Origin: Siniperca chuatsi
Lineage: Eukaryota; Chordata; Actinopteri; Centrarchiformes; Sinipercidae
Length of the DNA stretch: 64,000 bases
Direction of reading: 5' to 3'
Assembly: GCF_020085105.1 (NCBI RefSeq)
Contig: NC_058043.1
Location: forward strand, 18,148,667-18,212,666
In this document: positions 17,301 to 63,228 of the stretch, in pieces
Layout of the letters: the number at the start of each line of letters is the position of its first letter
How positions within the stretch are numbered: the first letter of the stretch is position 1
Notes under the pieces: generated by a model
Databases searched by the model: none
Seen by the model: only the letters and a program-made list of their open reading frames with translations
Told to the model about the DNA's origin: nothing
Made by a program: the position numbers and the translations under genes

Positions 17301-18459
17301 ACCACGAAATTGAAGAGAAACTATGTTTGCATGTTTTTTTCAAGCACTTCCCCTTACAAATTAATTTTAATAATGATATTTTCCTATAACCTGTAATGAT
17401 TTTTATTATTATTATATATTTTATTATTTATTCAGATTTTGCCACTGAGTGGTTTGGGAGGTTATGAATGAGCTTTTTTTTTTTTTTTTTAAAAATAGCT
17501 GTTTACTTATCATCCACTATAGTTCAAACCAAACTGAAGTTTAAGTCTCCAGGAAAATGTTTAGTCTCATTTACTCCCCACATTTTAGCAAAATATGAAA
17601 ATATCTCATAGCGACATGGATGCTTTCTCATCACATGCTTCACTGTGCAGCCACTGAGGTCTCCCCAACACCACTATGGACAGCTTTCTAATTCCACACC
17701 AAGTCATACAGTATCTGACAGCAAAAATCTTCTCAGGCTTGGTTAGAACCTGAGATCCCTGATTCAGAGCAGATCTGGGGGTTCATGCTTTGAAGAGCTC
17801 CAAGCAGCAGTCAGGACATGGAGGGTATTGATGAATGACTCACATCGCCACCTAGTAGTGGTGATGGGTAAGACTATTTACTGTTATACTGAACCGGGGA
17901 CTGATAAGACAGGGTGCTGTAGTGCTGGCCATTCCGATTCTTACCAGAGATGATGATGGAGCTTTCAATTTCTGCAGCATTTTTTTTTTGTCGTAGTATT
18001 TTTTTTTAAGTAAATATATATACATTTTTTTTGCTCGACCATAAACCTGCTAATTCTTTGGATTTACTGAACTATGATTTTGGACAATTACCAGTGACCA
18101 GTGAGGTGTATTACTCACGTATTTTAGAGCCTAGTTTTGCTGTTTTGAAGGTTCACATTGTAGATTTCTGCACCTTAAGTTTACCTTTCTTTTAGATCCC
18201 ACTTTTTGTCAAATGTTTCATATTATTTAGATGATTGGAAATTTTTGCTCTTCTCCTCTCACGCGTCTTCAGTTTTTAGAAAGAATGGGTGACTCAGTTT
18301 CAACCATTCTTGTTTATCCCTTCAAAAACATGTTTTGAGCCTCATCATACCCCACCCGTCATCTTGTCACCTGTGAGGACGCGAGGAAGACTGCCACTTA
18401 AAACCCTTCAGGTGACTGTTTCAGCCATTGCATGACTGCACAAACCTGACGCATCTGCA
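14321..18459. other. Intergenic / oxtr 5' flank
   Basis: AT-rich flank with poly-T runs (17474-17490 and near 17980-18008). No gene was recognised. A putative acceptor GCATCTGCAG ends at 18460, 17 bases before the oxtr start codon, so at least one 5' untranslated exon may lie in this stretch; the pyrimidine tract is weak and I could not place the exon. Confidence 0.4.
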
Positions 18460-18477
18460 GAGGACAAGGCTGCGGCA

Positions 18478-19405
18478 ATGGAAAGTATTTCAAATGAAAG
18501 TGACTTTTGGCAATTCAACGAATCCTGGCGAAACTCAAGTCACGTTAACGCGACCGGTTGGTTGAATCAGACGAACCCTCTGAAGCGGAATGAAGAGGTG
18601 GCGAAGGTGGAGGTGACTGTGCTCGCCCTGGTGCTGTTTCTGGCGCTGGCGGGGAACCTGTGCGTCTTGCTGGCCATCCGCACAACCAAGCACAGCCAGT
18701 CCCGTATGTATTACTTCATGAAGCACCTGAGCATCACCGATCTAGTTGTGGCAATATTTCAAGTTCTCCCTCAACTTATCTGGGACATTACATTCCGGTT
18801 CTATGGACCGGACATTTTGTGCAGGTTGGTGAAATACCTACAGGTCGTTGGGATGTTCGCCTCCACTTACATGTTAGTTTTGATGTCCGTAGACAGGTGT
18901 TTGGCAATTTGTCAGCCTCTTCGTTCTTTGCACAGGCGAAAAGACCGCTTCTATGTCATATTTTCCTGGGTCTTGAGCCTGCTCTTCAGTATCCCGCAGA
19001 TGTTCATTTTTTCCTTGAGAGAGGTTGGCTCGACCGGATCAGGAGTGTATGACTGCTGGGGCGACTTCGTGAAGCCCTGGGGAGCCAAAGCTTATATCAC
19101 ATGGATCAGTCTCACCATATATATCATTCCAGTAGCAATACTGAGCATTTGCTATGGGCTGATAAGCTTCAAAATATGGCAAAACTTTAAACTGAAAACT
19201 AGGCGGGAGCAGTGTATAAGCCTGACGCCCAAAACCTCCAAAGGGAACACACTGACCCGTGTGAGCAGCGTAAAGCTCATCTCCAAGGCGAAGATAACCA
19301 CAGTGAAAATGACTTTTGTGATCGTCGTGGCTTATATCGTCTGTTGGACCCCCTTTTTCTCTGTCCAGATGTGGTCTGCGTGGGATCCAGCAGCGCCCCG
19401 TGAGG
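18478..19405 (+). CDS. oxtr: oxtr coding exon 1 (TM1-TM6)
   Basis: ATG at 18478 is the first in frame and gives the expected N-terminal length. The exon ends with GAG G before the donor GTAGGT at 19406. Reading through the donor adds only seven residues before a stop, which explains the 316-codon open frame. Confidence 0.95.
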
Positions 19406-22400
19406 GTAGGTTGAATTTTAAAGTTTAATGTTATATTGCGAGCGTGCCAATACTTCGCAAAAGCTGATGTAGGCTACCCATAATGTCATTATGCATGTGA
19501 GACATTCTGAAACACACCATCCATATTTTCCATCCTTCTGCACATTTTATTGCCCAGTGCAAATTAATGGAGCTTTTTAACTGCTTTTTACAACCTTGCT
19601 GTGCGCATCAGTGCTCTTAACGCAAGAGGATGCCAGCTCTTGGTTATCCCGTTGGAGCAAACTGAGACAATAAAAACACAATTTTGAGATGTGTTTGTTC
19701 TGGTTTACTCATTCAGGTGGGTCACGCACTGGAGTTTTATGGTTGACTAATGCAGAATCGGGTTCTGCTGTTTTAGGATCAGGGTAAATGACCCAGCCAG
19801 GGTGCGGTGCGGATGACAGAGACTTTACAGTAACTGAGCAGCAGCTCTGACCGATCACGGTCGAGGAGGTTTGACACAAGGCCAAAACGAAAACAAAAAG
19901 CCAAAACAAAAACAAATTACTCTGTCTGCTAAAAACACAAATGCTTGGAATTTCATAAACACCCATGTATGTGACATTTGAGTGTTTGTGACATTCGCAA
20001 TTTTAATGGAAAACTATCCTACAATATACACCGTTTAAATATACAGTAGTCTGTCCCTGTTGCCTAACCACCAACATTTGAAACACATTATTAGAACATG
20101 CTATTATTTCCAGATTGACTGACAGGTCTTACAATAGACAACTAGTTAATCTTACCTATTGATCTAATGTTTTCTGATGCTGTTAATGGTTTGTTTACAT
20201 CAGGAATGTAGAGCAGGAAAAAACAGACCTACAGTATGTTTAGTTTTTTCATATATGCTTAGTTTATATATAATAATGCACCATAATACACTCATACTCA
20301 ATAATACAATACACAACAATTTGTGATAAGACCTTTAAAGTGCAAAAGCTGCATACAGAATTTTCTAAAATTCCTCTGACCCTCGTCACGCTGCAGAGAC
20401 CGACTTACGGCTAATCATTAATCAAATTAGTGTGCCCACCACGTGCCAAACAGCTTGTATTTGCGCCTGTGGGGCACGTTGGAGTGTGCCCTTGACATTT
20501 AACCACAATAGGCCACTAAGCAGCCATCTACTGTATGTGGTCCCTATATTTATCGATCTGTTGGTGGCCACACCCATATAACAACAGAAGATGATGCCAA
20601 TTTGATTTAACAAAGTATTTACACTGTGCCATTCCAAGTAAATGGAGCCATTTATGTAATAGCCTTGTGAAAAGTAAAGATGTGTTTAATTTGAAAGGGG
20701 CTGTCATTTGTCTATTTGATGTAGGGTAATTTGTTGTACTGGAAAAGTGGAGGGTAAATCTTATTAGAGCTGTTAATTTGAAGACTTTGCAGAATAATAT
20801 ACCTGCATCTCCTCATGAAAAGAAACAATTACCCCAAAGACAAAAAGTAAAAAAGAAACATTTTTTTTAAAAAACAGACTGTTAACAACACTGTTTATGC
20901 TTAAAATAAACAATAATGTCAGGAGGTTTCTTGATGAGTAGAGAGTAAACAGACAGTTTTTCAACCCTTGATTCTTTTCTTTAGCTTCTGTGGGATTGTG
21001 TACAAGGTTCCAGCTGACTGGTTGTGTGTCGCTGTTATCCTCCTCAAGCTGCATTTTTCACACCAGCTATTTACACTTTGGAGCTTTTCTGTTGCACAAT
21101 ACACTTAGCTGTCATCCAATTCTTCAACACTGAGGAGGCATATTGCTCGATGCACTGATGAAATGACAGTAATTGGCTCTGATGCTACATCTTACAACAA
21201 TATTCAAAGTTACAGGAGCCAGAAAAGAGCAGCAAAAGTGCTCCAGCCCTTGAATGGAATTAATTTTCTGTTGCTGGATCAGTGCAGGGAGGAGGCTGAT
21301 GTCTTATGGCTTTCCTCCACGTGAGCAGCACTCAGAATTGCCAGAATTGGCAGTGACACGTGCCAGTGTTTGTGTACAAAAGATATGCTGGAGTGTCACC
21401 TGTGTGTGTGCAGATAAAGTGTCCATTAGTCATACTCAGCAAAGTGAGCCCAGATCACACAGCTTAGAACAGAAAGCCCTTACTAAGGAAGAACCTCTAC
21501 ATTGGAAAGGTCACTTCAAACTTTTATGATATAAATAAACCATAAACAGTTTCAGAAAACATTAGGCTAATAAGTGAGCTTTTGTAGTTTTTTTGTAGTA
21601 ACTATAGTTAATGTAGTCAATTTTAAAGCGATACCAGATTGTAATAATAATTTTAGTTGTGGGGCAACTAAGTTACAGACTGTACCTTTAAAACTGTTTC
21701 CATTGTAATGAAAGATTATTCACCAGCGAGGAGCATATACAGTAAAACTGATTATTAATGTGTAATCATTGTTTATGAGGTAAATGTTTAGATAGCAGCA
21801 GATCTCAAACACATATTATGATATTACATAGGTCATTCCATATAATCACTTTTATTATTTTACCATGTCATATATCCATAAATATAAACAGACACAACAT
21901 TATTAGAAGACTAGTCATGAAAATTGATTATTTTCACTGGTGGTCATTTTTCCATGGTGCAGAAAAAAGTCTACTGTTGCAGCATGTTTGTGAGTGATTG
22001 AAACCATCATGGAAAATGATTACCATTCTTCTGAGATTCATCTAATAAAGACATCTTTTTGTTCCATTTTCACCATCAATCAAACTGACGCTTCGACATA
22101 AATGGAGGTTTACTATACTTAAAGGTTGCTGTCTGTCTTTATATTGCCACTCTTAGCATAAACAGTATGTACAAGCAGCAGTTTCTTTGCCTGAGTCTAT
22201 ATGCAGACTTTCTGCCCTGGCCCATTACTAAAGTAATCATACCTTCTGCAATGAATGATTCAGAAACCCTTTGAGACAATCAACAACCAGATGCATAATG
22301 TCTCCAAGTTCATAGTTTTTCATTTTAGGAAATATGCTTATTCACTCTTGTCGAGAGTTAGATGAGAAGCTAGCCTGGCTCTGTTCAAAGATATTTCTGG

Positions 22401-25400: not shown

Positions 25401-26263
25401 TGGATTTAGGATTTGGGATTTTGCCTGCTCCCTCTTGGATTCATTTGCCTGTTCGGACTGCTCTCCTTGTTTTTTTTTTTTTTTAATCTCTGGCTGCCCG
25501 AATACCCCAGTAAGCTTGTCAACATTATTAAACCGTTTAGCTGCACCTGCCCTGCCTACGTGTCTGCATTTTGGGTCCTATTCCTGCTTTCCTGCTCGAC
25601 ACACCATAACACGTGGTGGTGCTAGATGGAAAGTCATGTGATGGTCAATTATTAAGATTTACCCTCTAGGGAACATGGCTATCTGTACCAAAATTCATGG
25701 CAATTCATCTAATAATTTGAGACATTGCAGTCTGGACCAAAGTGGGGAACCGACTGATTGACCAACATCGCTACTAGCATGGCTAAAAAGCACTAATTGA
25801 GACAAAGTTGTAAAACAATGTGTGTGCACAAACTTGTAAATTATGTATATTCTTTTTGTCACTGCACATGACAAGGCTGGCAATAGATAAACTTTCAGCC
25901 AGCCACTAACACCTTATTTGAATCAAAACTTTCACAGAGAAAACAAGCTGCTGGTTCACTTTTGTAGTCACAGCACGCTAACTTTCCTCTCTTCTCTCAT
26001 CTCCTGCAGCTATGCCCTTCATCATCTCCATGCTGCTGGCCAGCCTCAACAGCTGCTGTAACCCCTGGATCTACATGTGCTTTGCCGGGCATCTGTTCCA
26101 GGATCTTAGGCAGAACTTTCTGTGCTGTTCCACTCGATACCTCAAGTCATCCCAGTGCCGCTGTGAGCGTGACTTTGATTCCAGTCACAAGAGCAACTCC
26201 TCAACCTTTGTCATTAAGAGCACTAGCAGTCAAAGGAGCATCACACAGACTTCCACCACATAA
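18478..26263 (+). CDS. oxtr: Oxytocin/isotocin receptor (two coding exons)
   Basis: Class A GPCR for the oxytocin-family nonapeptide (isotocin in fish), Gq-coupled at the plasma membrane. The coding sequence joins 18478-19405 and 26010-26263 with a phase-1 junction that creates an Ala codon; 393 residues, close to the family length. Visible: an N-terminal tail with five N-glycosylation sequons (N6, N14, N19, N24, N30); TM1 Asn60; TM2 Asp88; Cys115-Cys193 disulphide pair; DRC at 139-141 in place of DRY, as in this subfamily; CWTPFF at 289-294; NPWIY at 327-331; palmitoylation-type Cys348-Cys349; Ser/Thr-rich tail. The intron between TM6 and TM7 is at the position known for vertebrate OXTR/AVPR genes. 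The APREA...[15 protein letters not shown] stretch favours OXTR over V1 receptors. The convergent neighbour cav3 supports OXTR orthology. Whether this is the a or b teleost copy cannot be said. Confidence 0.95.
22325..22752. repeat. MITE-like repeat, copy 1
   Basis: The left end has 'gagagttagatgagaagct' and the right end 'cttatctaactctcatcaag' then 'ttgaactattccttta', so the ends are inverted relative to each other. Internal phrases 'agctaacaattgctagctgtagc' and 'ctggccaagaaacagtcc' recur in the copy at 32.7-33.24 kb. This is a very common teleost non-autonomous element family; there is no coding capacity. Confidence 0.65.
24740..25167. repeat. Interspersed repeat, left part, interrupted
   Basis: Contains 'ctctgtgaggctgtac', 'gctaacgtcagcatgataac' and 'attcatcctaaaggtgagcatg', phrases shared with the copy at 11.6-12.26 kb. 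It breaks at about 25167 and resumes at about 25613, so a second element has inserted into it. Confidence 0.6.
25168..25612. mobile_element. Short element nested inside another repeat
   Basis: About 445 bp. The left end reads GTGTCATGGT and the right end, on the opposite strand, GTGTTATGGT, giving 9 of 10 matching terminal inverted bases. The body is T-rich ('cctgtgtctcattgtctccc', then a T-run and 'ttcctgctttcctgctcgac'), as in a widespread teleost repeat. The host repeat reads through on both sides ('gaccttatg' and 'gtggtgctagatggaaagtca'). Exact borders and target duplication are uncertain within a few bases. Small open frames in it are not genes. Confidence 0.55.
25613..25790. repeat. Interspersed repeat, right part
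   Basis: Continues the repeat broken at 25167: 'ggtgctagatggaaagtcatg', 'gtctggaccaaagtgg' and 'ccgactgattgaccaac', matching the order of the uninterrupted copy at 12.0-12.2 kb. Confidence 0.6.
26010..26263 (+). CDS. oxtr: oxtr coding exon 2 (TM7 and C-tail)
   Basis: Starts directly after CTCCTGCAG. It completes a split Ala codon, then encodes TM7 with NPWIY, a helix-8 region, two adjacent cysteines and a Ser/Thr-rich tail ending in TTST-T before TAA. The ending is the family pattern (SSQRS...QxST). Confidence 0.95.
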
Positions 26264-29024: not shown

Positions 29025-29366
29025 TTAGACTTCTTTGCGCAATGCAACGCGCACACTGCTGAAGATCTTGCCCAGGGCTTCGAAAAAGGGATCACAGAAG
29101 GTCTGGATGCAGAGAGAGTAGATGCGGTTGATGCACTGCGACTCAATCAGACAGCTCTTGATGCAGGGAACCACAGCCCAGATGTGGCAGAAGGAGATGC
29201 ATGCAAACAGGAAGCCCCAGAGCAGAGCAACAGGGATACCGAAGACAGCAGACAAGATGCGATAGCACCAGTACTTGGACACAGTGAAGGTGGTGTAGCT
29301 GAGCTTCCACACCCCATCCAGGCTGTGTGTACCATCAGGCTCTGCAATGACATCCTCAAACTCCAC
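29025..29366 (-). CDS. cav3: cav3 coding exon 2
   Basis: Begins with GTG (Val40) after the acceptor CCTGTTAG and ends with TAA at 29027-29025. It carries the signature, scaffolding domain, hairpin and palmitoylation region. The first codon is an internal valine, not a start. Confidence 0.95.
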
Positions 29367-30870
29367 CTAACAGGAAATTTAAAAGAGGCTTCCATTAATA
29401 CACATTCCTGAGTGCACACCGCTTTTATCCATCCACCAGACCTCTGTGGGCTCCAAGTAATATGCACATGGCAATGTTAAGTGTAAAGATTATGCTTGTG
29501 GAAGCTTGAGTGTTAGGGTTAAATGTTTGCAGAGAAACCAATTATCTGCTGCACTTCATAGAATAAAAGAAACATTTAGTGGCATACAGGCAAAGTTATG
29601 GAGTGGCTTTTAATGCTGGGTCCAAATCATTCTAACAGCTCTATTCCAACACATTTTTTAGTAACCGAAGTTCACCTCATGTAAAATGCATGAAAGCAAC
29701 TGTACAATAGTCCAATTCATTTTCAGTTTTCAGTATGTGCCACCTGGTCTTTTGGACGCTGTCGCATTCTGAACCGAGACATGTTAATTAACCTGTCTGT
29801 AATCATGGCAGGCAGATGCACCGCATGTCTAAAAGCCCTTTCTTTTCTTCCAGAAGATCGGATAGGATCAGCATGGGAAATAACGAGTCAATGTCCATTT
29901 CCTGCAGAGATAGCAACCTGAGATCATCATCTGAATGAATGGCTGGACATGCACTGTTTTATATTTTCTCTGCAAGGTATGGCCTCTTTAAACTCTTAGA
30001 GGGATTGCAGTGGAGTCAAATTCAGCAAAAGAACAATCAAAGATGGTAAATCTGATTACTCAGAAGATAAGATTCCCTGACTAATTAGGGACACTGTTTT
30101 AATAGATATTACCAATCCACTTTATTTTAATGGAAAGGCAAAGAAAAAATAAGAATTGGAAATGTTAACAGGAAAAAACATTTTTAATGCTAATTTATCA
30201 CTTATTGTAACTCCTACTGTAGACCAGACTATTGGGAGTAAGGTTAACAAACCATTCAGTTATGTACATAATCTTTATTTTGATGTCTGAAAGCAGACAT
30301 GAGCAGACATGTAAATCATTCCAAACTGAGCCATGCAGACACTAAACATATGCTCTACTCATAACTCAAGATTTACCATCTTCATTGACCATGTTTATAT
30401 GAACTCCTTCCAGTCAAACAAAATATAATCTAAATGTATATTCGGTCCTGTCCTGACAGAAAATATTTTGTGGTAATAACATGGCAACAATCACAGGATA
30501 AACAGTCAGCCCCAGTGTATCAGTTTCACACTCTTCTACCCCATTCCCAAAATAAACTTTATGTTCTACTCAGGAACAGGAATAGCTCTTGGTCTATTTA
30601 AGGATTTTCCAGACAGTATAATAACCTGTTCTCCTGTCTTTGTTCCTACTAACCACTTTATTTATTTTCTCCACATGCTTCCACACATGCCAAGACAGGG
30701 GTTACGTTCTTAATCCTTTCTGTAACAGGGTGCTGTCTCCATGCTGTACAAACCTTCACCACGTCCTCATTGATCTGCTTGGGGTCTCTGTTAATTAGAT
30801 CAATCTCCTTGGTGTGGCTGTCCTTCACAATCTTCTCCTCGTTGGTGTTGTACTGGTACTGATCCGCCAT
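29025..30870 (-). CDS. cav3: Caveolin-3 (two coding exons)
   Basis: Structural membrane protein that oligomerises to form muscle caveolae. The coding sequence joins 30870-30754 and 29366-29025 in phase 0; 152 residues against 151 in human CAV3. Visible: [10 protein letters not shown] in the N-terminal region; the caveolin signature FEDVIAEP at 42-49; scaffolding domain about 56-75 ([20 protein letters not shown]); membrane hairpin about 79-106 ([22 protein letters not shown]); cysteines 107, 117 and 130 at the three palmitoylation positions of caveolins; ending RKEV as in human. Convergent with oxtr, the arrangement known for CAV3/OXTR in other vertebrates. The isoform call as cav3 rather than cav1 rests on the DGVWK...[13 protein letters not shown] and ALRKEV sequence and on this synteny. 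Confidence 0.95.
29367..30753 (-). other. cav3 intron
   Basis: A 1.39-kb phase-0 intron, donor GTTTGT and acceptor TTAG. No coding segment or complete repeat was recognised inside. Confidence 0.9.
30754..30870 (-). CDS. cav3: cav3 coding exon 1
   Basis: 39 codons from ATG at 30870 (context GCCATGGTGG on the plus strand), ending NEDVVK before the donor GTTTGT. The [19 protein letters not shown] stretch matches the N-terminal region of caveolin-3. The open frame reads on into the intron as far as 30658. Confidence 0.93.
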
Positions 30871-35500: not shown

Positions 35501-35664
35501 GCTGTCACGTACGTAAGTTAAATACGTTACTTAAGTTGACTTACATACTTATGTTAACATAAGTCAACGCTGACAAACAGCGGGTCAAAGTCCTGTATTT
35601 GTTTGACCCATCCATCCTACTGACCTCGTCCCTTCACGGACTTTGTCATTCTTTATACTACGTC

Positions 35665-35677
35665 ACCTTACATTTTC
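35665..35677. repeat. LINE target-site duplication, left copy
   Basis: ACCTTACATTTTC, 13 bp, identical to 37447-37459 directly after the LINE tail. It defines the left border of the insertion. Confidence 0.9.
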
Positions 35678-37446
35678 CATGGCCATGGAGGAGGACTATC
35701 GGTCGGCCTCAAAGAAATTCTGGCAAACCGTCCGACGGCTCAGGAGGGGGAAGCAGTGCTTCACCAACACCGTGTACGGTGCGGGTGGAGAGCTGTTGAC
35801 CTCGACTGGGGATGTTGTCGGACGGTGGAAGGAATACTTTGAGGATCTCCTCAATCCCGCTGTCACGTCTTCCGAAGAGGAAGCGGAGGCTGGGGACCCG
35901 GAGGCGGACTCATCCATCACCCTGGCCGAAGTCACTGAGGTTGTTGGCAAGCTCCTTGGTGGCAAGGCTTCAGGGGTGGATGAGATCCGTCCTGAGTATC
36001 TTAAGTCTCTGGATGTTGTGGGACTGTCTTGGCTGGCACGTCTCTGCAACATCGCGTGGCGGTCTGGGACAGTGCCTCTGGACTGGCAGACCGGGGTGGT
36101 GGTCCTCTGTATAAGAAGGGGACCGGAGGGTGTGTTCCAATCACAGAGGGATCACACTTCTCAGCCTCCCGGTAAGGTCTACTCCAGGGTACTGGAGAGG
36201 AGAATTCGTCCGATAGTCGAACCTCGGATTCAGGAGGAGCAGAGTGGTTTTCGTCCCGGTCGTGGAACACTGGACCAGCTCTATACTCTCCATCGGGTGC
36301 TCGAGGGTTCATGGGAGTTTGCCCAACCAGTCCACATGTGCTTTGTGGATCTGGAGAAGGCATTCGACCGTGTGCCCCGGGCGCTTTGTGGGGAGTGCTC
36401 TGGGAGTATGGGGTCCGGGGCCCTTTGCTAAGGGCTGTCCGGTCCCTGTATAACGGAGCAGGAGCTGTGTTCGCATTGCCGGCAGTAAGTCAGACCTGTT
36501 TCCGGTGCATGTTGGACTCCGCCAGGGCTGCCCTTTGTCACCGGTTCTGTTCATAATTTATATGGACAGAATTTCTAGGCGCAGTCAGGGGCTGGAGGAG
36601 TCCGGTTTGGGAACCACAGGATCTCATCTCTGCTGTTTGCAGATGATGTCGTTCTGATGGCTTCTTCAAACCAGGACCTGCAGCATGCACTGGGACGGTT
36701 TGCAGCCGAGTGTGAAGCAGCTGGGATGAGAATCAGCTCTTCCAAATCTGAGGCCATGGTTCTTGACCGGAAAAAGGTGGTTTGCTCTCTTGGGTAGGTG
36801 GGGAGTCCTTGCCTCAAGTGGAGGAGTTCAAGTATCTCGGGGTCTTGTTCACGAGTGAGGGACGGATGGAGCGTGAGATTGACAGGCGGATCGGTACAGC
36901 GTCTGCAGTGATGCGGGCGCTGTATCGGACCGTTGTGGTGAAGAAGGAGCTGAGTCGAAAGACAAAGCTCTCGATTTACGGTCAATCTACGCTCCTGCCC
37001 TCACCTATGGTCATGAGCTCTGGGTAGTGACCGAAAGGACAAGATCGCGGATACAAGCGGCCGAAATGGGCTTCCTCCGCCGAGTGGCTGGGCGCTCCCT
37101 TAGAGATAGGGTGAGGAGCTCAGTCACACGGGGAGCTCGAGTAGAGCCGCTGCTCCTCCACGTCGAGAGGAGCCAGCTGAGGTGGCTAGGGCATCTGATC
37201 CGGATGCCTCCTGGGACGCCTCCTCGGGAGGTGTTCTGGGCATGTCCCACCGGAGGCGGCCCGGGAAGACCCAGGACGCGCTGGAGGGACTATGTCTCTC
37301 GGCTGGCCTGGGAACGCCTCGGGATCCCCCCGGAGGAGCTGGAGGAAGTGTCTGGAGCGAAGGAAGTCTGGGAGTCCCTGCTTAGACTGCTGCCCCCGCG
37401 ACCCGGCCCCGGATAAGCGGAAGAAAATGGATGGATGGATGGATGG
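35678..37446 (+). mobile_element. 5'-truncated LINE (non-LTR retrotransposon) with RT remains
   Basis: 1769 bp between two 13-bp target-site duplications, ending in a (GATG)n tail (37425-37446) after GGATAAGCGGAAGAAAATGG, the 3' end of a common teleost LINE. Coding remains of the reverse-transcriptase protein lie in several frames: EEYFEDLLN-like and GVDEIRPEYLK (about 35.84-36.0 kb), SGFRPGRG (about 36.24 kb), VDLEKAFDRVPR (about 36.34-36.38 kb), the catalytic FADDVVLM (about 36.64-36.66 kb) and the C-terminal GRPRTRWRDYV (about 37.26 kb). Frameshifts near 36.1, 36.4 and 36.55 kb and in-frame stops at 36795 and 37025 make it inactive. The endonuclease domain is missing through 5' truncation. 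The clade is not assigned. Confidence 0.92.
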
Positions 37447-37459
37447 ACCTTACATTTTC
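37447..37459. repeat. LINE target-site duplication, right copy
   Basis: ACCTTACATTTTC, identical to 35665-35677. Confidence 0.9.
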
Positions 37460-39250
37460 TTCTCGATGACATTCACGCATAAAATGACTTGCTGTCTGTA
37501 AGTCAGTAGAGAGTAAATGCCATGAAAAGAAAAGGTATTGTGATAACACACACAATGACTCAAGACACTGGCGTGTTATTCATACGCCATTTGGTGATAC
37601 CAGGTCTGGTGGAGATCTGCACTCTACCGAGTGCACACTTCTAGTTACTTTTGTACTTTATTCAAATGAAATCATGAATGTAGGACTTTAACTTGTGTTT
37701 TTTCTTAGGTAAAAGTCATGCGTACTTCCTCCACCACTGTATACTTCTACTCCACTACATTTCAGGGGAAATACTGTAGTTTTTTTTTTTACTTCACTAC
37801 ATGCATTTGGCAGCTATAGTAACTTCACAGACTGAAAAATTACTGTATCAAAAATTATTCTTTTGTTACATACATGAAGTTATCTTTTAAGACATGATGC
37901 ATTTCTTAAGATGAAAATGCCCAACACTATGAATTCAATATTTTTTGGGTTGTTTTGTAGTAATCTAATATTGTAATGTAATCTGATTACACTGGTACTT
38001 ATATTACTTTTGTAATCGGATTACCCTTGTTATCAGATTACTTTTGTAATCGGATTACTTTTGTAATAGATTTCTTTTGGAATCGGATTATTTTGTAATA
38101 GATCACTTTTGGAATCAGATTACTTTTGTAATTGGATTACTTTGGTAAAATTATTACTAATTATTACTGTTCTTTTCTTTTGTCGTTGCAATAGCTTCCA
38201 ATGAGTTCTACTTCTGCATACTTTCAGCTACAGTCTTCATTTAAACTTTAAACGTGGCACAAGACTTTGAACTATTAAACTTGTAGTCAGCTTTTTACAG
38301 TTAACATCATTTAGAGTTTTTGAATTAGCACCGTTTGAGTTTTAAGCTTTTTTCAGTCCTTTTCTGAGTTTCTAATGGGTGTATATTGCTCTCCTTAAAA
38401 TGTTTCACATGAGCTGAAGAAAAAAGAAAAAGTATTGTGATAACATACAAAATGACTCAGCCTGGACTTTCCACTACACTAAATGAAATCATGAATATAG
38501 GACTTTAACTTGTGTTTTTTCTTAGGTATACTTCCCCCACCACTGTATAGATTACTTTCGTAATCTGATTACTTTAAAAAATAGATTACTTTGTGATCAG
38601 ATTACTTCAGTAAAGAGATTACTCTTGCAATATATGTATTAAAAAATAAATTCAACTTTTTTTTCTTTTTTTCTCCTGAAGTTTTCTATTTCTGTAATGA
38701 AATCAGGTTACTTTTGCAATCAAATTATTTTTATAATTGGATTCCTTTGGTAAAATTATTACTTTTGTAATCTGAATTATTTTTCTTTTGTCGTTTGCAA
38801 TAGCTTCCAATGAGTTCTATTACTGCATACTTTCAACTACAGACTTAATTTAAATTTTAAATGCGACACAAGACTTTGAACTATTAAACTTGTAGTCAGC
38901 TTTTTACAGTTAACATCATTTAGAGTTTTTGAATTAGTGCCGTTTGAGTTTTGTCCCCCTCCACCCCCACAACAGCATAGCTATGCTACTATGCAATAAC
39001 TGCTGTTACGTAGGTAAGTTACATACATTACGTAAGTTGATTTACATACTTAAGTTACTTTTGCACTTTATTTAAATGAAATCTTCAATGTACATCTTCT
39101 ATTTTTTCTTAGGAAAATGTTAAGCGTACTTCTTCCACCATTACATTTCAGGGGAAATCCTGATTACTTTTGTACTTGGATTTCTTTTGTAATCTAATTA
39201 ATTTGTAATTGGATTACTTTCGTTATACAGGACAACAATTTTTTTTAACT
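37460..39250. repeat. Mosaic of duplicated repeat blocks (copies B and C)
   Basis: Contains a second GTAATC-N-GATTAC block (37.93-38.16 kb), smaller ones at about 38.55-38.78 and 39.16-39.22 kb, copy B (38.16-38.41 kb) and shorter copy C (38.79-38.95 kb) of the segment at 34.18 kb. The phrase 'gtccccctccac...cagcatagctatgc' at 38953 also occurs at 35458, and 'aaatgaaatcatgaatgtagg' or variants occur three times. The order suggests repeated local duplication of a compound unit, with the LINE inserted later. Confidence 0.8.
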
Positions 39251-39424
39251 GAATTCAACCAAAAAATTCTGATTGTCAACCATATCTCTGTATAAAACAA
39301 AACAGTACCTTACAATCAAAGAAAGACAAAACATTTACACACTAAGGAATTAGTATGCAATCGGTTATCACTTGTTTTTTCTCTGTATCCTCTGTTTTAC
39401 CAAAAATGTACACAGTGTGTTTTT

Positions 39425-39863
39425 CTATCTGTCTTCATATTTTGCCAGATAGATAGTGACTCGACCACAGCACTTTTCAGTACTGGTAAAGAAGGGGCTG
39501 ATGAGAAAGTTCAGTATGCTGCCCCAGTCTGAACCCAGTGCATGTTGATGAGAAGGAGCTGCACACAGGGCATGATCAACCTGGAGAGATGCAGGGAAGT
39601 GGACAAAACATGAGCTCATCTCAATAGTAAAAAAAATAGAAAAAAGTGTAGTAGTAGGGAAAAGGTAGAGTTACTATTTCTAATTCAACTACCTACTGAG
39701 TGATTCTTATTTACCAAAATGTTTAGCAGTTAATCCTTGCCTCTAAGACTACCTCATCTCAGTGTAACAACAGTCCTACCAGATGTGAAGGCAGCTGAGC
39801 ACAGCAAAGAGGAGCCCTGCTGCCAGTGCCAGTGTCACTGGCAATCACATCCTCAAACGTGAC
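39425..39863 (-). pseudogene. Caveolin-2-like pseudogene (last two exons)
   Basis: Minus strand. Exon remnant 39863-39780 encodes VTFEDVIA (caveolin signature), then in another frame LALAAGLLFAVLSCLHI; it ends ATC TG before donor GTAGGA. The last exon 39580-39425 follows acceptor CATCTCTCCAG and completes a Trp codon, giving HIW-LIMPCVQLLLINMHWVQT. After a frame change comes GSILNFLISPFFTS, then KCCGRVTIYLAKYEDR and TAG. This follows the order and the HIW junction of caveolin-2 (family known: SCLHIW/ILMPF, VQT, SVxRCxSxVSL). Lesions: about 35 codons missing between the signature and the hairpin, a 1- or 4-base deletion after VQT, and no AG before the upstream exon. No first exon found. It sits on the same strand as cav3, upstream of it, as CAV2 sits relative to CAV1. 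Name left open: cav2-like. Confidence 0.8.
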
Positions 39864-42800
39864 CACAAGACACACACAGAGACACAGATTTCAAGGGACA
39901 GTTTTTCCCAAGTGTGTAATACGTAATACTGAGAACCAGAAGCTTGGGTATGAAAGCGTGGAAGCTATATATGACAAAATCTTGACATGCAGAATGAGAA
40001 TGATGCGTAATATAGACAAATGTACTGCATTCAGCAGTTTTTAATTGCAAACAAAGTCATTTTTCATCACTTGTACTTTGTAATGTAGGATCTTACAGAC
40101 AGGGGCACAAATAGAACTGTGCGTATAATCACGTCCACTTGAGGTCAGTATTACGCAGCATATTGATATTTACCACGTTTATAGTAGTTGGTATTCTTAT
40201 ATTACCTGAGAACAAAAATGAAAATCATTGGCCTAGTTTACTTAACAAAAAGCTTCAAGTTTTATTTGTAAATTAACCAAAACCATACATTTCTTCTTCA
40301 CTTCAGCTTTGATTTATCAGTGTTACATCTGGTTCAATAGAGACAGAAGAAGTGGTATGCAGAGCATGTGCAGCAGGTTTATTTATTTTACTGGTCTGTC
40401 TCTGTTACTCCAGAAACATTTTGTGGCCTGTGCTGTGTGTTCTCTGTAAAGGTTTATGTGTGTTTCATGTTGATTACATCCCTCTGACGGTGCACATCAG
40501 TTACCTTAAGACTCCTGTTGATTCTTTTGGGATCCCTGTCATGAATCAGAGGCCTTGCATCACTGTGGGTGGAATTCAGATCTTCAGATTGCACATCTAC
40601 TTTGATTTCCATCCGTTCCCCTGCTGGTCTGTTGTCTTTTCACCACTGGTCCTCCATTTCCACTAAGTTGAGCTGTGTCTCGGCTTAGTTGACTGTTGTG
40701 GTCATGTCATTGGAAATATGGAGAATAAGCAGGGCGTAGCGGGAGGAAGGCTTACCACTCTAAACTCTGCAGGCTTGTCAGTGACACCCAGGTGGAACAT
40801 AGTGGACTGCTGATTGCCTTGCTCCTTGTTGAGGAATGCCTTTATTGGCTTTTAAAGGCCTAGTCTTCAGTGACATTTTCCATGTGACACACTACATGGA
40901 AAGTCTCATTTAGACCTGAATGTGAAATGTACAATGGCCATAGATAATAGCATAAAATCAGCCTTCACTTCCTGCTTAAATATTAAAGGAGTGATGGTGA
41001 TCAGTGGTCAATATTTTGGCACTATCATGGTTATACATCTCCTCCTCTTCTCATCATGAAAGCAGAGTTGGCAGTGTTGGTCCATTAACAACAGACTTCT
41101 CTGCCAAGAGCAGTCCTCCTAATCGTCCATCCAAACTGGAATTTACCTCCTCCACTGACAGTCTCTGCCCTGACTACAGAAACTGACTGTAGTCCCACTC
41201 ATGTGTTACTGTCGAGTGTGGCATTACACATAATGCCTGTGTGTGGTCTGTGCACACTTTACATCTCATCATTATCTAGTGCAGTTTGTGTAACTTGCAG
41301 TTTGGAGACTGTAGACAGTTTGCAGCAAAACTCAAACATCTCTAGACTTTTCACAGTTCTCTCAGGAATTAATCTCTCAGGAACTAATTGCTCCACAGAG
41401 TATGGAACTTCAGGCTTTCATGCATTCATTTCATGCAAACAGATCAATATACTGTAAGTACGTCTTAGTATATTGGTCTGGTGGTTGCAGTTTATGATAC
41501 ATGCCAAACTGTCCACATGCACCTCAGGTACTACTTGGACCCAGGTCATTAAAGTGAGTTTATTTAGGAATATCACGTTCCTAAATATAGACAATATCAA
41601 CTAATCTGCTAAAGATCCTGCTTTGACTGATTTTTGGTCCCTCTGGGATGCAGCACTTACATACAGTATTATCACAGTGTAAAGACGATATGAATTTGTT
41701 AGCAAACAGATGCTTATTTACACATCCAGCAGATACAAAGCAACATCATTCAGCATCATTCATTTGGAGTTGTGTTTCTGGCCACTTGATGAATGTAAGT
41801 CCATTATTCAGCTTATCCAGCTCTTCAGCTGCTAAATGCTCCACTATGTTCACCAGCTAATCGCTAACTTTGTCTGTGTGACATATGGGGCTGAGCAGGT
41901 AGTGTAAGCTACAGTGGGTTTTTAGAGGAAAAGTAAGGTTGCCAGCCTAAAAATCAAAATCAAAATCAACAATGCACTGCAGAGTCGGGTGATGATCCTC
42001 TGTAAGTTTGTCCCTGCGAGCTACCCCTTTGACATACAAGTAGTCATGTTAATATAATAGAATATTGAATTTTAAGATTAGCTTATGAATCAGGGCTTTA
42101 TTGTGTCAGTTGACAGTGTGCTTTAGTGGTGCATTTTCCCAAATAAATTAGCAGTTAATCAAATTACAGCAAACCAAATGACACAAAGTGAACCTGGGAC
42201 GTTCAGGGGCCCCTCAGGGTCTGGGGCCTTGGTGCAGTTGCCTGCTTTGGCCAGCCTTGTGTACATGTTTTGGTACATGTAGTCCACTTTCTGTTACATC
42301 CCCAGCACTGCCTTTATTCAGCATGACTGTGACTGTGAGGTCCTGTTTTCTCCAAAGTATGTTAGTACTGTATGAGCAAGATTCATTTGTGCATTTGTTA
42401 CACTGCATTATTTACGGATTTTTTTAAATGTACTGCCTAGTGCTTTCATTACTTATTGTGAGTAGTGTATGTTTGGTTAGTTTTTAACACACCAATGTTA
42501 TATCATTAAATTGCTTCACATTTTCTATGACACCAGAAGTGTTTCTTTCACAACACTGTCCCTCATTAAGCAGCCACACAATTACACAGTAAACATTCTC
42601 TTCTAACCTATGAATTATATCTGCCCTCCCTCAAGTAAAAAAAAATGTATCTGACTATACACACTGCATATTTCATACATCTGTAGTTTATAGATTGTGC
42701 TTGTTAACCCGCTGTTTATTCACATTGATCACAGACATTCCACAGGCAGACAGCAATCTGAATTCAATATCTTATGTAAACTGAGACGTCATTCACATTT

Positions 42801-43555
42801 TGAAAAAAGCATGACCAGACACTTGGCAGACAACATGTATCTCACTGTTTGTTGAAAATTCCTAAAAGCCTTCTTCTTGTCACAGAAGTCCAAACAAAGA
42901 CTGAGGGGAATTCACTGGTATACGGCGCACTCTGTTGGCCATGGTTTGTATGTGTAGTTTTTTATTTAAAAATCCTCATTATTTGTAACTGATGGTTAAA
43001 TCAGCTGTATTTTCCACTCACACATGCCCAAATAGCTAATTTTCTCCCAGTGCTTGCAATAATACCAAAGTACATGTTTTCCCAATCACAGCAGTACTGT
43101 AGTGGAGTGGAGGCAGTAGTCTGATTAGCAGATGATTAATAGTGTGTGTGTGGAAACCATAGTGATGAAGACCGCCCAATATTATGTTGTGATTGTGTCT
43201 GAAGTCTGTACATCCTCTAATTTAGTTACATCTGGCACATCTCCTGGCTTGTAAAATAATCATTTTAATCAAAAAGTGCATCATGAATTGAATGAAAGAC
43301 AAATAACACAGCAAAACAACTAACGCTGCCAATTTAAAATTCAGGCAATAAAGGCAACACAAAGTTAAAACAACTTTGCTTTTGTGCTTTATCCCAATTA
43401 GGTTCTGTCAATGCATGCTGTCTGACAGGGCTTCCTGAACCAGCAGAAGACAAATTTAACGTTCACTGGTTTGGTGAAATAAAAAAAAATCAGTATCCTG
43501 GTAATAAAATGTCTACTACTCTGACAGTTTGAATTGAACTGATAATATTGATGGT
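39864..43555. other. Intergenic, no gene recognised
   Basis: AT-rich sequence. The N-terminal exon of the caveolin-2-like relic would be expected here if it survived; I could not identify it. Open frames such as 40352-40666 have no family resemblance. Confidence 0.45.
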
Positions 43556-43559
43556 GAAG

Positions 43560-43926
43560 CTTTATTAGTCACAGTGGAATGCGCTTAGTGTGCTGGAGAT
43601 GGCTCGGGTAGCGTGGCAGACAGAGAGGTGGAGGCAGCTTGGCTGGAGACTGAAGAGATCGGGTAAACCGCAGTGGCTGGGATCACTGGCAGGGAATGAA
43701 TCTGAGGCAGAGACAGACAAGGACAAACAAGCAACTAGCAACTAGAAACTAGAAACTAAACTGGAACAGGCCATAGCAAAGGTATCACAAAGGTGCACTG
43801 AGACACTCTGGCAATAGTTGAATGGTAGAGCCAGGTAGATATATTGTGAGACTTGACTGGATGATGAGTATCAGGTGTGCCGGTGATCAGCAGTAAGAGG
43901 AAAAACCAGAGCCCTCTGCCCAGGAC

Positions 43927-43984
<58 letters not shown>

Positions 43985-44095
43985 TGCAGAGAGACAGACA
44001 GTACTGACAAGGAACACAGGGAGGGGAGAAACACAACAGAGCACACAAGGATAGGAGGAGAGATGTGGCTAAACTATGACACATTGATGTTTAGT
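43560..44095. repeat. Probable interspersed repeat containing a CA array
   Basis: Purine-rich text ('gacagagaggtggaggcagc', 'aagcaactagcaactagaaactagaaact') ending 'ggctaaactatgacaca' resembles a family of teleost repeats. Borders are uncertain. The internal CA array is listed separately. Confidence 0.35.
43929..43985. repeat. (CA)n microsatellite
   Basis: About 21 CA units (43930-43971), a CTCG interruption, then a few more CA units. Open frames rich in Cys-Val or Thr-His here are repeat artefacts. Confidence 0.95.
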
Positions 44096-45565: not shown

Positions 45566-45569
45566 CTGG

Positions 45570-45835
45570 GTGTATTTAAAGGATAGGTTCACATTTTTTC
45601 AAGTCTAGTGTTGAGGTACAGAATCCAGTCATTTTTCTGTGCAAAAAACCATCCTTAAATTCAGCTGAAGATAATATAAGGCTTCAGCAGATTGAGTTAT
45701 CCGAATCAAGTGGGGAGTTTTGCACAAAATAATGACTGTGGATTTTGTCCCCCATCGCTTACACTGAAATTTCTTTTAAAAAGGGATCTCTTTGTAGCCA
45801 GTATGGACAGGAGGAATGATTACGGCAACCGATAG
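45570..45835. repeat. Interspersed repeat (fish MITE-like)
   Basis: Starts 'aaaggataggttcacattttttcaagtc' and includes 'cccatcgcttacactgaaatt' and 'agccagtatggacaggaggaatgatta', the recognisable order of a frequent teleost non-coding repeat. Confidence 0.5.
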
Positions 45836-46230: not shown

Positions 46231-46329
46231 AACCAATAATCATTTGAATGTACATATTGTCAGTATTGTTTTAAGATAGACTAAAAGTGGCTCGCAAACA
46301 TAAAAAAACTGACATGGCCTATATATTAA

Positions 46330-46375
46330 CACGCTTAGACATTGACCAACTCATGTTGGTCAATGTCTAAGCGTG
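46330..46375. other. Perfect 21-bp hairpin over the gpr62 stop codon
   Basis: 46330-46350 is the exact reverse complement of 46355-46375, with a 4-base loop TCAT at 46351-46354. On the gpr62 mRNA the upstream arm carries the last codons and the TAG stop (46369-46367), and the downstream arm is in the 3' UTR. Pairing stops outside these bounds. Confidence 0.95.
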
Positions 46376-47635
46376 CTCCTCAGGTATTTGTCCAGGGATC
46401 TTTATCCCCTGGTCTGTAATGTTTTTGGGACGGGAGTTGGCACAGCTGGACAGGGTTTCAGCTGTGCTGGTGGTTCTCTGGATGAACTGGAGGAAGTTCT
46501 CCTGAAGGGAGCCCTCATGGCTGGATGCCCCGAACTCCACCGGCTGGGTCAAGCAGCAGCGTCGAAACTTTACCAGCTCTTCTCTGATCTGTCTGTTTAA
46601 TAGGCCGTAGAAGAACGGGTTAACTGCAAAGGAGGAGTAGGCCAGCCAGGTGACTGCCTCCTCTAAGTCCCCGGGGCTCTGCATGGAGCCAGTCAGAGAC
46701 ATTTGCAGGTGGAAGATGAAGTAGGGCAACCAACAAACCAAGAACTGGCCCACAATGAATACCAAAGTAAGGGCAGCCTTGCCGCCACTGAAGGCCCTCT
46801 CTGGTGATAGTCTTTGGGGCAGAGTGCGGGTGGTGGTGATCATGGTGGTCTGGCTGTTGATGGAGTCCGAGCGATTCTTAGCAGGGCTCGCATTTGCCCA
46901 CGCTGGCACAGCAGGGACTTGCTGCAGGGCTGCAGAACGAGCAACCTTGTACACGGCACAGTAAACAGCAAAGATAACCACTGCAGGAACCAGGAAACAG
47001 ACCACACTGAAGAGCACAGCAAACACACTTCTTAGACGACTGTGGCTCGCATGGAGAGAGCAGTGAGCTGCAGCAATAGAGCTCTGATGTCCATAAGCTG
47101 GCCATCCAAACAGCGTGACCAAAGCTAAGAGGGCTGATTTAACCCAGATTAGGAGCATGACACCAATAGCGAGGTTGATGGTCATCTTGACTTCATATCG
47201 CATGGGGTGTACAATATAGAAGTAACGCTCCACACTGATGGCTGTGATGGTGAGAATGGAAAGACAGATGAGGAAAACATTGAGAAAGATGTAAACCTGA
47301 CACTCCAGAACAGTAAACACCACGGTGCCAAAAAAGGGAGAGCTGGATATGATACCCAAAGGCATGAGGAGGATGGCACACAGCAGATCCACTGCACAAA
47401 GGTGACACACAAAAGCGAACCTCTTCAGGTGAGGAGCACGAGCAATGGCCACCATCACACCAGTGTTGGCCAATAAAGCAATGAGGTTAAGGGTCACCAT
47501 GCAGAACAACCCAAAAAGGTCTTTGATCTGTGACTGGGAGCTTGTGACGACACCCACATCGGCAGGAACCGTAGGATTGGCCTCCCATAGGGCAGTGGTG
47601 CGATTTGATCTCATGGAATCGGTCTTGTCGGCCAT
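46367..47635 (-). CDS. gpr62: Orphan class A GPCR, GPR61/GPR62 type
   Basis: 422-residue receptor in one coding exon. Visible: N-glycosylation sequon N11; seven hydrophobic segments from about 38 to 346; Asp83 in TM2; Cys112-Cys192 pair; ERY (136-138) in place of DRY followed by YIVHPMRYEV; GGKAAL at the start of TM6 and CWLPYF at 301-306; NPFFY at 339-343; palmitoylation-type Cys360-Cys361; EGSLQENFLQFIQ at 374-386; IPGQIPEE at 413-420. The last two blocks are shared with GPR61. Next to parp3 in the same orientation, the position of GPR62 on human 3p21, so I call gpr62. gpr61 is the alternative on sequence alone. GPR61/62 are orphan receptors with constitutive Gs activity reported. ATG at 47635 is the first in frame. 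A leader acceptor CAACACAG lies near 47691. Confidence 0.85.
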   Translation of the reverse strand: MADKTDSMRSNRTTALWEANPTVPADVGVVTSSQSQIKDLFGLFCMVTLNLIALLANTGVMVAIARAPHLKRFAFVCHLCAVDLLCAILLMPLGIISSSPFFGTVVFTVLECQVYIFLNVFLICLSILTITAISVERYFYIVHPMRYEVKMTINLAIGVMLLIWVKSALLALVTLFGWPAYGHQSSIAAAHCSLHASHSRLRSVFAVLFSVVCFLVPAVVIFAVYCAVYKVARSAALQQVPAVPAWANASPAKNRSDSINSQTTMITTTRTLPQRLSPERAFSGGKAALTLVFIVGQFLVCWLPYFIFHLQMSLTGSMQSPGDLEEAVTWLAYSSFAVNPFFYGLLNRQIREELVKFRRCCLTQPVEFGASSHEGSLQENFLQFIQRTTSTAETLSSCANSRPKNITDQGIKIPGQIPEEHA

Positions 47636-50600
47636 TATTCATTCACAACTTCCTCCAGTTGTATCTCAGACGTTTTCATATGTGGATGTCCTGTGTTGAA
47701 AAGACAGAAAACAGCTAATTTCTAATTGGAAGCATGTAAACAGTTGCATACATGTTTTAAGTGCAAACAGATACACTTAAATTGGAAACAGTTAAAAGTA
47801 AAATACAGCAATGACTAGCTTTTTTTTGTAAAATCAGTATTATCCCCCTTGAGAGCCATTCTACTCTGTTGTGAAAGATGAGAGTTGTAAGGACAATAAG
47901 CAATGACACTCTTCAATAGTCTGAGCTCTTTGCTACCAGTGATCTCAGTTAAGGTTTTCCAGTGTGCTTTTGTTTTAGGTCCAACTCCAGTCAAATAAGA
48001 TCTAAGAAATGACAAGCCATGAAAAAGGAGTAACAAACTGATGTGATATACTGACATGATGTACAACCAAATGACAGCTTTTATGAGTAAACAAAAGCTA
48101 ATGTGCATATGAGTTTTTGTTCAACATATGGACAAAAATGTATTGTGATATTATAAGTCCATTAATATTGGCAAAATGCAAGTCCTATGTCAAGGGTGCC
48201 AAGCGCTGACAAGTTAAAAGGCAATCAAAGCTTTCACCTGCTCTATCTTTAAAAGCTCTGACACAGTCTATGCAGTTTCAAGGCAAAGATTTTTACCACT
48301 TTGCTTTAAGTACACTTTGTTACAGGCTGTTCCAGCGAAAACATTGGTAAAGTTAAATCAATTCAAATCAAGTTTTGTTCCCCAAAATAGTTGACCTGAC
48401 ATTCATCCTCTCTGCAGTATGCAATGATGTGCTGATAGAAAAATATACATTTTAAAAATATCAATACCTTCGTATCTCATTATGTGGTAAAACATATTGA
48501 TTGATTTTTGATTGAAAGTTAAATTCCATCTCGTTTTTCATCACCAAAAATAAAAATACAGCACTTACTTACCCATGATCCACCCTCTGTTTGTGTGGTT
48601 CAGTCAGTTCAGACCAAACAGGTTAACCAGGTCTCTGACTCGACAAAGCGCCTGTTGAAATCCCACGTAAGTTTATTTAGGCCCAAACCAGAGGAAGCCC
48701 AGTTTTATTTGTAGTCAACTGAAAATCCATGTTATCAAGTCCAGTTGAAGTTTGGTTCTTCTTTGGCTCCAGAGGTCTAGACTTATCACAGGTGCATATC
48801 TCCAATCAAACAAGTGCTGATCACTGATTCCATGATGATTTTAGATGGTCAATGATGCTTCCTCTCTCCTCTCTCTCATTCCTGTCCTGTGCAGTGTATG
48901 GCAGTGACAGTCACACATTGTATTGTGTGTGATTGTGTTTTTTTGCTTTCAAATAGACACACACTCCACTGTCCCACTTCCAGAGCCCAGTCTTCCCTGG
49001 GTCCTAATCTACACCAGTTTAAAGGGGAAACTCGTGTTCACCCTGATGCAGCCTCTGTATCTTACATGCATTTACTTACTTGCATAAGTAGTAGTATTTA
49101 TTGAAATCAGAGGCAACTGTAACATTGCTAGAAAATGGAACTACTCCATTGACTACAATAAGTAAGGGATTGACTGTTGTAGTCATAGAATAAAATGCAC
49201 TGCAACAAAATGCATGCTATTTTACATCTAAAGAGATGTTTGTGTTTTTTTTAACACCCCAATTACCTGTATTCCATAGCAGCGGTTCCCAAAAAATTCT
49301 ATATTGACCTGAATATTTTGTCCTTGTAAATAGGTCTTAGTGCAGAAGTATAAAAAGTAATAGTATAAATTTCCTCCGCACCAAAAAGTCTTCATCTGGG
49401 TTAATTTAACTAGTATGTTTAACTGTTCTGACCTATAATTGTAGCAGCCTTCTTGAGCCAATTAGTGTAAAAAAAATGCAGAGTGGGAACACCATTCAAT
49501 TTATGTACGTTTCCCACAATCTGATCAGCAGTGTCTGAATAATGTTTACACGCACATTTTTATCTCAAATTTAGAACCAAAGGGTCATGCAAAATGAACT
49601 TGAAAGTCCTGTTTATGTTGATTAGATTTTCACAATACAGTTATTCAAATCTGTAGTGTAGTCTTAAATATCTCCAAGTGCTTTAATTATATCTTTACTT
49701 CTCTCCAGGTCGGTCAGAGAGCAGGATTATTATCCGGACTCAAAGTAACGCAAAATGAGGGATATCAAAAATATTATTTGCTACACAGAATGTAAATCTG
49801 AAAATATTAAACAATCCCTTTAGGTTGAGATTAGATAGATAAGACTATCTGTTTTTTCCATTTGTTCACACACCATTATCACCATCTTTTTCTAGATGTA
49901 TAACTGCCATACAGACAAATTATATCGCTGTTAATCAAATGTCATCTAGCAGCATACTGAAACTTTCTTACATCAAAAACATTATTGGTAAAAAATGACC
50001 ATATAACCTGTAATACTGGAAAACACCTAAAATAGCAAGTATACAAAAAGATCAAAGTCTTCAAGCTCAACATCCAAAAGGAAAAACTTTGCAACATGTT
50101 GAAGAGACACTTTAGTTTATTAACTAATAATTGGTTCAAGTAATGTCTGCAAAAACAAAAGGCAATTACATTCAAGGAAGCTGCTCATTACTGACACCAT
50201 AAAGTGGCATTTGTAACGTAGCTAGAAGACCTACTGGGCAAGACATTTGCCCAGGTTATTCATAACTTACATGTTACATTACTTTGCATTGCAGAAACAC
50301 TTTCAGAGTCTTTCTCAACAGTGCAACAAAATTTTGATTTATAACAGTACCTGAACATAAACCACAAATTGCACTTTATACTTGTGCCTGTAAACATATC
50401 TGTGCATAGAGTCATTTTTTCTTCTGCTCTACTATACAACATTATTCAAAATGTCTATACAACTACAAAGTTATGCGGTAAATTCCTCTTACATGTCAAA
50501 GATATTTTCTTTCTGAGGGACAGGTTTATATTAGCATTACCACTTGGATTAAATAATGCAATATGTAAAAGGTAAGCTCCTCAAACAAAACTGTGCAAAT

Positions 50601-56824: not shown

Positions 56825-57170
56825 TTTATTTACATAAATTACAAGAAAGCACAAACTGGTTCACCAAAATCTACATTAAAAACGTATTGTATATGTTACA
56901 TTTAACAGATTTACTATAATTTACTCCATTGTTGCAAGTAGAATCTTCAATAAAAACAAGGGCTATATGCGACTTTATTGGCATCTCATTTAAAATCGCT
57001 ACGAGTCAAAGAACAAAATAAAATAATCGGGACATTGTACTCACAGCACTTTGAGGACAAAAGTCAGGACGATCATTTGTGTGACCTCTTTAATATCTGA
57101 GACACCTGATTCAGGACTAGTGATTATATAACTCTGTTTACAATGCTTGGCAAAGGAACTCGGCTAATCT
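56825..57170 (-). other. grm2 3' untranslated region
   Basis: Minus strand downstream of the grm2 stop codon. AATAAA on the minus strand is present at 56830-56825 (and nearby), a plausible cleavage signal about 340 bases after the stop. Confidence 0.5.

Positions 57171-63228
<6,058 letters not shown>

Follow-up and report, generated by a model that had tools for sequence, protein, structure and literature searches.

CAV2R has been described as a cav3-linked gene that lies beside CAV3 in other vertebrates. Of the papers found, only PMC12330381 deals with caveolin subfamilies; citing Kirkham 2008, it derives the Cav2 family from CavZ and both Cav1 and Cav3 from CavX, with Cav2/2R forming one clade; the string 'cav2R' in PMC7393500 proved to be part of a primer name rather than a gene subtype. 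Reciprocal gene loss, or divergent resolution, after the teleost genome duplication is also a known phenomenon (e.g. PMC1890551 and PMC7161988).

The window analyzed here, i.e. a stretch of DNA of 64,000 nucleotides (C2 18148667-18212666), contains an intact cav3 gene and, upstream of it, the remains of a second caveolin gene (Table 1); its gene content points to a bony fish. We consider it likely, at a probability of roughly 0.86, that a three-exon caveolin-2-type gene stood beside cav3, that the block carrying both was duplicated, and that the caveolin pair then underwent reciprocal loss. The finding adds an example to a family already described (caveolin-2-type) and to a process already described (duplicate-gene loss), the clean reciprocal split of a neighboring pair being the unexpected part.

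Table 1. Features of the window, in window coordinates
Feature	Position	Strand	Remarks
oxtr exon 1, within open frame	18436..19420	+	7tm_1 E 3.5e-43
oxtr last exon (open frame holding it)	25982..26260	+	64-65% to block A 60.07-60.27 kb
cav3 exon 2, intact, with stop	29025..29366	-	Pfam Caveolin 166.6 bits, E 3.5e-49 for 29028-29366
cav3 exon 1	30754..30870	-	coordinates counted from motif position
caveolin-2-type pseudogene, exon 3	39425..39580	-	LIMPCVQLLLINMHWVQT at 39526-39579, then frameshift and, in the other frame, WGSILNFLISPFFTSTEKCCGRVTIYLAKYEDR and stop at 39425; acceptor CTCCAG intact
caveolin-2-type pseudogene, exon 2 remnant	39780..39863	-	VTFEDVIA at 39840-39863, 104-nt internal loss, LALAAGLLFAVLSCLHIW; AGLLFAVLSCLHI and split Trp within 39780-39835; acceptor lost, donor GTAGGA intact
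caveolin-2-type pseudogene, exon 1 remnant	40505..40612	-	MEIKVDVQSEDLNSTHSDARPLIHDRDPKRINRSLK; tblastn with intact paralogue, similarity limited to 40505-40591; donor GTAACT intact
gpr62-like rhodopsin-family receptor, upstream neighbor	46370..47638 (stop-to-stop open frame)	-	7tm_1 E 7e-44
grm7-like metabotropic glutamate receptor	57170..63228	-	three exon-bearing stretches, ~57.17-57.35, 57.68-58.00 and 62.10-63.23 kb

The duplicate block and its caveolin pair

Comparison of the window with C2:15.78-15.90 Mb (block A), together with a genome search using the srgap3-like exon, reveals a duplicate block 2.2-2.4 Mb from the window on the same chromosome, which is inverted but with the gene order kept, both blocks having grm7-like, gpr62-like, caveolin-2-type, cav3, oxtr and srgap3-like genes in this order. 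The names gpr62-like, grm7-like and oxtr (which we take to be the oxytocin/isotocin receptor) are our presumptive assignments, with the families coming from Pfam where matched; the name srgap3-like is likewise our assumption, for a stretch without a significant Pfam match (best E 0.077). The grm7-like stretch at 62104-63228 contains 7tm_3 and NCD3G and matches block A at 91% over 357 aa, the two smaller stretches being assigned solely by similarity to block A. Identity between the blocks is 64-65% for the gpr62-like pair (paralogue at C2:15826641, 65%), 77-79% for oxtr (paralogue at C2:15843533, 79%) and 70% for the srgap3-like pair (C2:15874486 and C2:18086059). Further relatives of the gpr62-like gene are present at C2:17829497 and C10:14998016 (49% and 44%), one of which is on the same chromosome, ~0.32 Mb from the window. 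Between its grm and gpr62-like genes the other block has a BEN-domain gene (~C2:15816700-15822000, L012-L013, its limits being estimated from open frames; Pfam E 7e-8 for one of its exons), no counterpart of which was seen at window 47.6-57 kb in the block DNA comparison.

A genome search with the Pfam Caveolin model (719 Mb, 65 contigs) gave eight exon matches among 19 scored candidates, i.e. cav1, cav2 and an extra partial cav2 exon on C4 (28.615-28.638 Mb) and, on C2, the window cav3 and two loci at 15.836-15.840 Mb. The extra exon (L008, C4:28615189-28615302) is a partial cav2 exon 2 without its 5' part, ~3 kb upstream of the real one. On C2, an intact caveolin-2-type gene (C2:15835499-15837334; exons of 219, 188 and 151 nt, 185 aa, Pfam Caveolin 174.9 bits), with an open reading frame and all splice signals present, occupies the same slot as the pseudogene of the window, with the same relative strand and order with respect to gpr62-like, cav3 and oxtr. 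The intact gene has a long acidic N terminus, its exon 1 comprising 73 codons compared with 50 in cav2. About 2 kb downstream of it, on the same strand at C2:15839.3 kb, lies a broken exon of cav3 type. A TAG stop stands in place of one of its Trp codons, a single in-frame codon has been inserted, and the similarity breaks off at a TA repeat after ~145 nt of the 342-nt exon. This exon aligns better with the window cav3 (108/134 bases, score 146.5) than with cav1 (96/125, score 102.5); a motif search for an accompanying exon 1 found none.

The window block has cav3 intact and the caveolin-2-type gene dead, and the other block has the caveolin-2-type gene intact and cav3 dead. The original prediction had proposed, from its position relative to cav3, that the window copy may be what remains of the caveolin-2-type partner expected beside CAV3 after whole-genome duplication. 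The duplicate block, where this slot is filled by an intact gene of caveolin-2 type, supports the view that cav3 had a caveolin-2-type partner and that the window copy is a remnant of it; the lineage is, however, not extinct, since the other block keeps an intact copy and instead lost cav3.

The sequence of events that best fits these observations would begin with a three-exon caveolin-2-type gene (of the Cav2/2R type) lying upstream of a cav3 gene of like orientation, in the manner of CAV2 and CAV1. The entire neighborhood, from grm7-like to srgap3-like, would then have been duplicated long ago, giving two copies of the caveolin pair, so that one copy of each gene became dispensable; the window block would then have kept cav3 and lost the caveolin-2-type gene, with the other block keeping the caveolin-2-type gene and losing cav3, and the two blocks would have come to their present inverted arrangement on one chromosome. 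The surviving genes presumably cover the functions of the lost copies.

The high synonymous divergence of the block pairs (NG86 Ks of 1.0 for grm and 2.3 for gpr62-like, and saturated for oxtr) implies that the duplication is old and, combined within this one genome with six gene pairs in order, is consistent with the blocks having arisen in the teleost genome duplication (3R). They might alternatively stem from a local block duplication within teleosts, in which case reciprocal loss would still hold. The presence of both blocks on one chromosome, inverted and 2.2-2.4 Mb apart, speaks for a local origin, as does PMC3826523, which describes the teleost OTR pair (OTR1/OTR2) as local duplicates after 3R; that paper also stresses post-3R rearrangements. 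The Ks values and the common order of the six genes argue against it, as does PMC9606234, which reports both oxtr paralogues (oxtra/oxtrb) from all teleosts assessed and interprets them as a pair retained from the genome duplication at the base of teleosts. Placement on the same chromosome fits either a local duplication or a 3R pair later brought together; we regard a local origin as credible, if unlikely.

Homology and caveolin type of the window copy

The minus-strand pieces at 39425-39863 that were originally reported, their order and their split Trp codon were all found again in the sequence; both pieces are real, but their number has to be corrected to three by the addition of exon 1 (Table 1). 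The exon 1 remnant matches the whole intact paralogue at 46% over 35 aa (tblastn, E 7.8e-4) and the paralogue exon 1 alone at 42% over 33 aa (tblastn, E 1e-3), with an E value of 3.7e-4 in the reverse search; it ends in ...RDPKRINRSLK, followed by a good donor, and matched no Pfam family at E <= 1. The Trp codon of the HIW motif is split by an intron (TG/G) in the window copy, in the intact paralogue and in cav2 of C4, whereas the cav1 and cav3 exons of this genome are continuous across this codon, without an intron there. The window copy has, then, the exon arrangement of a caveolin-2-type gene, i.e. three coding exons and an intron in the HIW Trp codon.

When tblastn was run with the intact paralogue and HSPs of at least 18 bits were chained, the collinear chain in window 37440-46366 (gene strand) scored 147.5, whereas the best of 300 dinucleotide shuffles scored 75.5 (0/300 reach 147.5), the 18-bit floor having been chosen post hoc, once a first version of the chain had proved noisier, and the rerun made with the paralogue query only. 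The first version, which included weak HSPs, was too noisy, giving 174.5 versus a shuffle maximum of 160.2 with the paralogue query, and, with the cav2 query, 86.3, which is below the average shuffle score of 93.5 (maximum 162.4). The three top single HSPs with the paralogue query (35.0, 33.9 and 31.2 bits) each exceed the best of the 300 shuffles (24.6), as does only one HSP with the cav2 query (31.6 bits; shuffle maximum 24.3). The shuffles exclude chance as the source of the similarity to caveolin, and the window copy belongs, as a gene remnant, to the caveolin family by virtue of ordered homology beyond chance. It was not found by the Pfam Caveolin model alone at E <= 0.001, i.e. it is not one of the eight matches among the 19 scored genome candidates; its exon 2 piece (E 0.055, 13.9 bits, profile 67-84) and exon 3 piece (E 0.061, 13.7 bits, profile 106-131) fall at the correct profile positions, in each case below the PF01146 cut-off of 25 bits for a working caveolin. 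A search for relatives in viral contigs gave 39 pattern matches, none of which was a relative.

In a caveolin tree of eight rows and 154 columns, in which three provisional human protein sequences are the sole non-teleost ones, the pseudogene grouped with the intact copy with support of 87/88 (mixture model) or 94/93 (LG+G4). The pseudogene row is short, and the choice of its pieces for their similarity to the intact copy favors this placement and may also have shortened its branch. A four-row caveolin-2-type group that includes both stood apart from cav1/cav3 at 100/99 (mixture model) and 100/100 (LG+G4). AU tests reject neither a position of the pseudogene with cav2 (p 0.090) nor one with cav1/3 (p 0.088), and the tree is thus to be taken as support, not proof. 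The intact copy is the closest of the seven other rows by identity (51/103), the values for human CAV2 (provisional sequence), cav1, cav3 and cav2 of C4 being 44/102, 41/103, 38/103 and 38/102, respectively; by plain identity the pseudogene is no nearer to cav2 of C4 than to cav1 or cav3. The HIW-Trp intron and the slot in the block add weight to a caveolin-2-type identity that is independent of the tree. Overall, the window copy appears to group with the caveolin-2-type rather than with the caveolin-1/3-type genes, despite the AU p value of 0.088 for the latter, and the caveolin-2-type identity proposed in the original prediction is upheld by the tree group (100/99), the split Trp codon and the slot shared with the intact copy. 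The tree and the Cav2/2R clade named in PMC12330381 are also consistent with the pseudogene being the 2R ohnologue of CAV2.

A caveolin-2-type sequence beside cav3 could also be a segmental or tandem copy of ordinary cav2 (C4) that landed there, and the occurrence of a partial extra cav2 exon 2 near cav2 on C4 and the AU test, which leaves a grouping with cav2 unrejected, are in keeping with such an origin. The pseudogene is, however, nearer to the intact block A gene than to cav2, both in identity and in the number of HSPs above the shuffle maximum (three versus one), and its place among the collinear genes is the one that the intact copy holds in block A, making a copy of cav2 very unlikely.

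Lesions and age of the loss

Measured against the intact paralogue of the duplicate block, exon 2 of the pseudogene (39780-39863) has 84 nt rather than 188 nt, and the missing 104 nt (~35 codons), not being a multiple of three, break its frame. At the acceptor of the same exon, the ...TCTCCAG of the paralogue is replaced by ...TCTTGTG, and exon 3 is 4 nt shorter than in the paralogue just after VQT (by-eye reading of both sequences). The three lesions originally described, i.e. a deletion of ~35 codons, a frameshift after VQT and a lost acceptor, are all seen in this comparison, and with them the claim that the gene is dead stands: the window copy is a pseudogene of a gene duplicate, with its frame disabled and its introns retained. 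FEDVIA is present, but the next ~35 codons are gone, whereas a working caveolin requires FEDVIAEP and the stretch leading to the membrane hairpin. With the exon 2 acceptor and the post-FEDVIA stretch lost and the C terminus out of frame, the window copy is unable to yield a normal product, and it is most likely now without function.

The pseudogene keeps three of its four splice signals (the exon 1 and exon 2 donors and the exon 3 acceptor) and most of its codons can be read, as would be expected if a working gene had been misread through assembly or sequencing errors. Such errors would have to account for three separate lesions, one of them the 104-nt loss, and the assembly has no second copy or haplotype, the 1216-nt pseudogene region being single-copy (one match, itself), so that we consider a misread gene highly improbable. 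A retrocopy of a cav2-type mRNA, in favor of which no point was found, is refuted by the two introns, which measure 641 and 199 nt between the exon ends and are retained at conserved positions together with all but one of the four splice signals, and by the presence of exon 1, which makes the locus a three-exon gene.

With respect to the surrounding DNA, comparison of window 39-46 kb with block A (E <= 1e-3) found nothing matching beyond the exon 2 stretch and 41.69-41.89 kb, the latter being repeat-like in appearance and matching several places in block A. By eye, degenerate short repeats of the ggattacttttgtaatc type are apparent at window 37900-39240, directly downstream of the pseudogene, and LINE-type reverse transcriptase-like open frames at 35607-37416, between cav3 and the pseudogene.

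The pseudogene has few lesions, and its codons can still be read. A silent copy of 3R age would hardly be recognizable and so, if the blocks date from 3R, the gene was probably lost long after the duplication. The pseudogene differs from the intact copy at 42, 19 and 56 sites in codon positions 1, 2 and 3, respectively (101 codons), i.e. differences are most frequent at position 3 and least frequent at position 2, a pattern which also takes in changes on the still-constrained sister branch. The tip branch of the dead copy is shorter than that of the intact copy (0.25 versus 0.82; LG+G4, 0.24 versus 0.58), which also points to a late loss, albeit with a bias from the similarity-chosen pieces. 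It may even be that both pairs were intact through most of teleost history, that their reciprocal resolution was recent in this lineage, and that the surviving caveolin-2-type gene, unlinked from a working cav3, is changing fast, an extension that we consider doubtful. If it is correct, close relatives may keep a working cav3-linked caveolin-2-type gene, or have the opposite resolution.

Significance and comparison with described systems

What began as a suggestion drawn from a 440-base fragment is now a documented case of a duplicated gene pair being dismantled with a different member kept in each block. The survival of the caveolin-2-type gene and cav3 2.3 Mb apart suggests that close linkage of the two is not essential in this fish. 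The results raise a concrete question, i.e. in which fish a caveolin-2-type gene is still linked to cav3 and at what time the loss from each block took place, and should be useful to specialists on caveolins or genome duplication; to other readers this is ordinary duplicate-gene loss.

Compared with the Cav2/2R clade as presented in PMC12330381, the window copy is alike in its caveolin-2-type sequence and HIW-Trp intron (the structure having been compared within this genome), but it is broken, and was matched to the clade by description. With the intact gene of the duplicate block it has in common the slot, order, relative strand, three exons and C-terminal CCG....I.LAK; the intact gene differs in its longer exon 1 (73 codons versus ~36 in the pseudogene) and in that it is its cav3 neighbor that is broken. 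In the CAV2-CAV1 pair (C4:28.618-28.638 Mb), too, a gene of caveolin-2 type lies upstream of one of caveolin-1/3 type in the same orientation, although the pair is on another chromosome and the identity of its cav2 to the pseudogene is lower (38/102). As in the known reciprocal losses after the teleost duplication (e.g. PMC1890551 and PMC7161988), alternative copies have been lost from duplicated blocks; here, however, it is a neighboring pair that has been split within one genome, with one member remaining in each block.
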